DNA from: Spirochaetales bacterium
Lineage (GTDB): Bacteria > Spirochaetota > Spirochaetia > Treponematales > Treponemataceae
Length of the DNA: 64,000 bases
Direction of reading: 5' to 3'
Assembly (NCBI GenBank): GCA_030540405.1
Contig: JAUNWH010000004.1
Location: 1-64,000, forward strand
In this document: positions 10,976-40,260 of the stretch, in pieces
Layout of the letters: the number at the start of each line of letters is the position of its first letter
How positions within the stretch are numbered: the stretch's first letter is position 1
Program-made: the position numbers and the translations under genes
The notes under the pieces: model-generated
Seen by the model: the letters and a program-made list of their open reading frames with translations, nothing else
What the model was told of the DNA's origin: nothing
The model's database searches: none

Positions 10976-11001
10976 CCCCCCCCCGATCACGCCGGGGGGG
11001 G
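10976..11001. terminator. Poly-C/poly-G hairpin between convergent genes
   Basis: Nine C (10976-10984), then nine other bases including GATCAC, then eight G (10994-11001). The two homopolymers can pair as a hairpin in either direction between the convergent GH18 gene and the gene at 11039. It may stop transcription, though no T-run follows. Homopolymeric C/G tracts of this length are exceptional in this AT-rich sequence; the only other one is at 38336. Confidence 0.5.
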
Positions 11002-38147: not shown

Positions 38148-38247
38148 TTGAAAACTTCAATCCGTGAGATTGCTCGGCTGACAAAAACTCATGGGATTTT
38201 AAACTGTAAACTTTGCAAATAATTTTTCACTTTTTTTGCCGTTTAAG

Positions 38248-38275
38248 TTGTCATTTCAAATAAACTCACTATAAT
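38248..38275 (+). promoter_or_regulatory. Promoter of the poly-C lipoprotein gene
   Basis: TTGTCA at 38248-38253, 16-bp spacer, TATAAT at 38270-38275. A GGAG ribosome binding site at 38303-38306 and an ATG at 38312 follow, placing the true start upstream of the poly-C tract. Confidence 0.65.
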
Positions 38276-38311
38276 TATAGATATACAAAATTCTATCTTT
38301 ATGGAGACAAA

Positions 38312-39230
38312 ATGAAATTTAATACCCACTTCACTCCCCCCCCGTGTGGCAGTAGCCTGCATTATTGCACTTAGCCTTGCGCTCTCGTTCACTTCATGTT
38401 CGGACGGCTCAAGCGGCAGCTCGGATGATGAAAAACCAACCTACACCGTAACCTTTGACGCGAACGGCGGAACAGGCACAATGAATCCTCAGATTTTTGC
38501 TTACGGTGAGCCTCAGAATCTTTCGCCAAACAAATTCTCAGTGGACGGAAAGGACTTTCTTGGCTGGGCGAAAACTTCCGGCGGAAGCATAGCCTACGAT
38601 GACAATTCCGAGTACACAATCGGCGCGGCGGACGTTACGCTCTATGCCGTGTGGGGAAAATTCGTAACCGCTGACAATGCCGCAACTGTAATTGCCGGAC
38701 TGGAAAGCGGAACTAGTGAAAATCCGAATGTCTATACAATAAAAATTACAGATAAAACATTGACTGCGGAACAACAGAAAGAAATAGGAACTGCACTGTA
38801 TACAAAATTTAGAGAAGAAAACGACTGGTACGGATTCATCAGCCTTGACCTTTCTTCCGCAACTGGAATTACAGAAATTCCGGAGGAAGCTTTTTCCTAC
38901 TCCTGTTTAAGCGGATTAATTCTGCCAGATTCTTTGGAAACTATCGGAATAGCTGCTTTTCGAGGCAATATATTTGAAGAAACTGTAATTCCTGACAATG
39001 TAAAAAGTATTGAGAAAGGCAGTTTTTGGGGCTGTTCAAGTCTTAAAACAATAACGCTTCCTGCAAGCCTTGTTTCCATCGGTGCTTCCGCATTCAAGAA
39101 TTGTGCCAGCCTAAAAACCGTAAACTACAAAGGCACGCAGGCACAGTGGGAGGCACTCAAGTCAAACATCAGTGACGGCAACGAAAAACTCACCGGCGCA
39201 AATATTGTTTACAACTACACCGGGGAGTAG
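38312..39230 (+). CDS. Phase-variable lipoprotein with InlB-type and BspA-type repeats
   Basis: As read, the ATG at 38312 leads into a tract of eight C (38336-38343) and a stop after 20 codons. With seven C the frame joins the long reading frame and gives a normal lipoprotein signal (hydrophobic VAVACIIALSLALSF, lipobox TSCS). The mature part has an InlB-B/Listeria-Bacteroides repeat (TYTVTFDANGG ... LYAVWG, about 40-105) and a BspA-like leucine-rich region (about 150-275; FSYSCLSGLILPDSLETI, LKTITLPASLVSIGASAF). A GTG at 38346 could start a version without the signal's basic part. Probably a surface adhesin switched by slippage. Confidence 0.8.
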
Positions 39231-40232: not shown

Positions 40233-40260
40233 TGTCATTATCGGGCTTGACCCGATAATC
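40233..40260. repeat. GTCATT-family palindromic repeat
   Basis: TGTCATTATCGGGCTTGACC followed by CGATAATC, nearly identical to 36734-36761, in the gap between the methyltransferase and the acetyltransferase gene. Only the palindromic core of the element is present. Confidence 0.75.

Follow-up and report, generated by a model that had tools for sequence, protein, structure and literature searches.

The gene described here occupies positions 38248 to 39230 of the window, by which we mean the whole 64,000-nucleotide stretch of Spirochaetales DNA that was analyzed; its elements are collected in Table 1. An earlier note on this DNA had described a promoter, a GGAG and an ATG in front of eight C, and each of these elements was confirmed at its position. 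Because a TAG at 38372 follows the eight C, the frame that starts at the ATG is only 20 codons long, as the note had said. The downstream frame, which ends with TAG at 39228–39230, is shifted by +1 against that of the ATG; 7 or 10 C would join the two, and the note's frame arithmetic was right on this point as well. At 24 nt after the ATG, the tract is part of the coding frame and not of the promoter.

Table 1. Elements of the tract-carrying gene, in window coordinates.
Feature	Positions	Strand	Basis or remark
Sigma-70-like promoter, TTGTCA-16-TATAAT	38248–38275	+	11/12 consensus matches
Ribosome-binding site, GGAG	38303–38306	+	Sequence; alignment of leader genes
ATG (38312–38314) with 8-codon leader MKFNTHFT	38312–38335	+	Leader type shared with 12 other genes
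C8 tract, proposed switch	38336–38343	+	Pure C, C8 or C9, in all leader genes examined
TAG that closes the frame of the ATG as assembled (OFF)	38372–38374	+	After MKFNTHFTPPPCGSSLHYCT
Downstream open frame: signal peptide, InlB-type repeat, BspA-type LRR	38346–39230	+	294 codons

The downstream frame begins with a signal peptide that terminates in FTSC, with the lipobox Cys at ∼38397, and it contains both an InlB-type repeat (Flg_new, E 1.2e-13) and a BspA-type leucine-rich repeat (LRR_5, E 9.5e-21), each above the Pfam cut-off. The lipoprotein signal, recognized by a sequence rule, and the two kinds of repeat agree with what had been predicted from the letters, and the protein may be lipid-anchored and exposed at the cell surface. 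Rfam returned no match around the gene, and no syntenic orthologue of it was found in either of the two related genomes introduced below. Two repeats of other kinds were seen elsewhere in the window: a tandem array at 11–147, whose 22-base unit is built of small palindromes, and a short dispersed palindromic element, tcgggcttgacccga, at ∼40233–40260, with ∼40 matches in the two related genomes together.

The same module, consisting of promoter, ribosome-binding site, short leader, C tract and signal peptide, opens 13 genes (hereafter leader genes): four in the source genome (G000), seven in an uncultured Treponema MAG (G021), and two in Treponema succinifaciens 6091T (G145). Among these genes the leader DNA is 81–92% identical and the tract is always pure C, eight or nine bases long. 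The promoter of the window gene sits in a 5′ block that the alignment showed to be kept in most paralogues, and the GGAG is conserved across the alignment with the exception of G000:C10, which has GGAA. When 200 genomes of the genus were searched, strong leader matches came only from these three, and matches in the remaining genomes were short and weak. Scanning genome contigs for the promoter pattern matched G021 alone, and a second strain of the source species was not found. In one comparison, a stretch of ∼200 bases spanning promoter through signal peptide (window 38228–38425 and G021:C3:15196–15396) was 92% identical, and the proteins behind these two blocks had bodies only ∼35% identical; the 5′ block shared by these two genes seems to move between genes.

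Translation could in principle begin behind the tract, at the GTG at 38346, in which case tract length would be irrelevant. This codon is in frame with the body, and the earlier note had named it as a possible start that would speak against phase variation. Nevertheless, it has the C8 run in front of it instead of a Shine-Dalgarno sequence, a protein started there would have no charged n-region, and in most of the other 12 leader genes the corresponding codon is GCG, GTA, TGG or another non-start. We regard a start at this GTG as extremely improbable. In most leader copies, reading through the tract places a basic or polar residue ahead of the hydrophobic stretch, which, together with the lack of conservation of the GTG, argues that the tract is apparently meant to be translated.

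In the assemblies, only one of the 13 leader genes is in frame, and codon 50 of that gene is a stop; the other 12 are out of frame, which leaves no leader gene with an intact frame. If one third were expected in frame, finding at most one of 13 would have p ∼0.04, a value that is inflated, the members being related and not independent. The absence of intact copies, along with a second lesion in G021:C4 and in G021:C28:655, is what one would expect if the tract were a fixed frameshift in a family of decaying pseudogenes. The bodies, however, are open for 294–632 codons (nine examined), and dN/dS was 0.41–0.48 for the three closest full-length leader-gene pairs and 0.45–0.48 for the window gene against two relatives, from which we conclude that leader genes are translated at least sometimes. 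Promoter, ribosome-binding site and tract are also conserved, and decay is unlikely to have disabled 12 genes by one identical lesion at a single position. We consider a pseudogene family very unlikely.

The full protein might also be made from an unchanged gene, by programmed ribosomal frameshifting or by slippage of RNA polymerase in the C tract, which would make switching at the DNA level unnecessary. CCC CCC C is slippery for tRNA-Pro, and nine of the 11 long-bodied leader genes are out of frame by one and the same offset. Within this one family, and within one genome, the offsets are nevertheless mixed: the window gene and G000:C47 need +1, G000:C10 and G000:C62 need −1, and G021:C4 is in frame. 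These differences disfavor programmed frameshifting, as do the other tract genes described below, which fall into all three frames and include near-identical genes that differ in frame. Only a small probability can be given to this explanation.

A more trivial possibility is that tract lengths were miscalled in assembly and that the true gene is in frame. Homopolymers are error-prone in sequencing, G000 and G021 are draft assemblies, and their leader genes often lie near contig ends. Against this, short reads usually read tracts of 8–9 nt well, and both leader genes of T. succinifaciens are also out of frame in a genome that is finished, polished with 960x Illumina coverage and stated to contain <1 error in 100,000 (PMC3156407). 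Miscalling is thus a highly improbable explanation.

Long G/C tracts are far more frequent in this DNA than chance predicts. The window holds four overlapping C8/G8 matches against 0.17 expected, a number reached in none of 100 shuffles, and the whole genome (2.48 Mb in 83 contigs) has 106 places with C8 or longer against ∼7 expected, the latter being the window figure scaled up. The same count across 145 other genomes of the genus ranged from 0 to 271, and nine exceeded the source genome. At one intergenic site in the window (10976–11001), which the earlier note does not mention, a C9 and a G8 are separated by nine bases and, as an inverted pair, might fold into a hairpin; a similar inverted C/G pair was found at G021:C5:65870–65892.

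We took the stretches around tracts of eight or more bases in the three genomes (58, 58 and 51, at least 167 in total) and scored a start tract where a Shine-Dalgarno ATG lay upstream of the tract and a frame of ≥80 codons downstream. Among the tracts listed, there were at least 56 such cases, 19 of them in frame and 37 out; the in-frame share of 34% is close to one third and fits random tract lengths. The start-tract genes other than leader genes (45 among the tracts listed) were distributed over 19 in frame, 17 at offset 1 and nine at offset 2. By a crude sequence rule, a lipobox was called in 40 of the 56 start-tract genes listed and in three of 59 background ORFs. A second position was also favored: among the tracts listed, the tract filled the spacer between a TTGACA-like −35 and a TATAAT-like −10 element in at least 38 cases, compared with 1.05 from shuffled flanks. 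By eye, ∼29 of the 38 spacer tracts listed precede lipoprotein genes and two precede an outer-membrane beta-barrel gene, and in both the start and the spacer class most of the tract-associated genes listed encode lipoproteins.

The only families recognized by Pfam in ten other tract genes were those of a solute-binding protein and of an outer-membrane beta-barrel; the remaining genes had no family. A second lipoprotein family (L087, L002, L007, L008, L080, L102 and L108) had no Pfam match in the one member scanned; it carries a G8–G9 tract ∼200–224 bases after the start, and of its members in the source genome four are out of frame and three in. A gene for an extracellular solute-binding lipoprotein (L085, L212) has a G9 tract adjoining its lipobox and is in frame in both genomes.

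Lengths of orthologous tracts, among those listed, differed in 32 of 62 pairs (7/20, 11/18 and 14/24) at 4.6–7.6% divergence. In the clearest cases a length difference separates an ON from an OFF frame in nearly the same gene. G021_12 and G145_16, which are 99.8% identical over 1010 nt, have 8 nt in frame (ON) and 10 nt out of frame (OFF), respectively; G000_40 and G021_7, 97.8% identical, have nine bases out of frame (OFF) and eight in frame (ON); and in T. succinifaciens two neighboring, near-identical genes have eight in frame (ON; G145_31) and nine out (OFF; G145_32). As a control, we examined A/T runs in the same flanks, where runs of 6–9 nt had changed in 40 of 274 cases and runs of 8–9 nt in 10 of 31. 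Since A/T runs of 8–9 nt often change too, instability alone is not special to the C tracts; long homopolymers are unstable generally, and the case for function comes from where the G/C tracts are located.

We consider it very likely that the C8 run acts as a contingency locus of the translational type, undergoing phase variation by slipped-strand mispairing, and that the window gene was assembled in its OFF state. The tract would gain or lose bases through mispairing at replication; one length in three would join the ATG at 38312 to the lipoprotein signal and the BspA/InlB-type surface domain, so that the protein is made (ON), and with the other two lengths translation would end after 14–20 codons (OFF). 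The window gene would be one of a large repertoire, mostly of lipoprotein genes, with G/C tracts placed near the beginning of the coding frame in some and in the −35/−10 spacer in others. The earlier note had proposed phase variation, and this reading is supported by the gene's anatomy and its recurrence in 13 genes, by open bodies under purifying selection, and by the length and frame differences observed at other tracts of the same genomes. Its statement that the clone is OFF applies to the consensus as assembled and is limited to that consensus. The window tract would presumably switch within one population, and such switching may bring a biological benefit.

The leader genes had no intact frame in 13, whereas 19 of the 45 other start-tract genes listed were in frame (Fisher p ∼0.02, inflated by shared descent). 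This excess of OFF genes could mean that selection favored OFF in the state that was sampled, or that the genes are designed to be expressed rarely. A bolder proposal, which we put forward tentatively and consider unlikely, is that the leader genes form a held-OFF set, in which a shared 5′ cassette of promoter, leader, C tract and signal peptide would have been spread over different surface-domain bodies by recombination; almost every cell would keep these genes out of frame, and rare slippage would sample them.

The slipped-strand mechanism is already known, and what the probable contingency genes described here add is a large repertoire from a group of hosts in which none was expected. Large mononucleotide phase-variation repertoires are known mostly from pathogens. 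The present group, whose named member T. succinifaciens is a harmless, cultivable pig-gut commensal of biosafety level 1, has dozens of tracts, sited where lipoprotein genes start and in their promoters, and it offers a safe system in which to study random switching of a spirochaete surface. Annotation deserves a check as well, in that such out-of-frame genes may sit among the 115 pseudogenes reported for the T. succinifaciens genome. In the openly accessible literature, we found no earlier report of so large a set in a harmless gut treponeme; two papers there name T. succinifaciens along with phase variation, and judged by title and abstract neither deals with such tracts.

A close likeness in gene layout is with the poly-G/C contingency loci of Neisseria, Campylobacter and Helicobacter, where a mononucleotide tract likewise lies near the start of a surface gene's reading frame and one third of lengths are in frame; the targets in the present genomes, where switching is predicted from sequence, are mainly lipoproteins. 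The window protein shares LRR_5 and Flg_new with BspA-like leucine-rich repeat and InlB B-repeat surface proteins, but its domains stand behind a tract-carrying leader that is itself common to other, partly unrelated bodies. Several pathogens, T. pallidum included, are known to have large simple-sequence repertoires (PMC11868660). Ten treponeme genomes, a sample that did not include T. succinifaciens, have been surveyed for G/C tracts; that study linked the tracts to slipped-strand change, and its lowest count came from the commensal T. ruminis (PMC8049484); in contrast, the commensal T. succinifaciens group is rich in tracts, which are sited at gene starts and promoters. Within the same genus, poly-G length controls the promoters of T. 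pallidum surface genes (PMC7864442): tprE/G/J, tprL and tp0126 have promoter G tracts of ∼8–10, and that of tp0126 is inside the −35/−10 spacer, a layout identical to that of the spacer tracts described here. The window tract differs from these T. pallidum loci in that it lies in the coding frame, belongs to another protein family, and comes from a harmless gut species rather than a pathogen.
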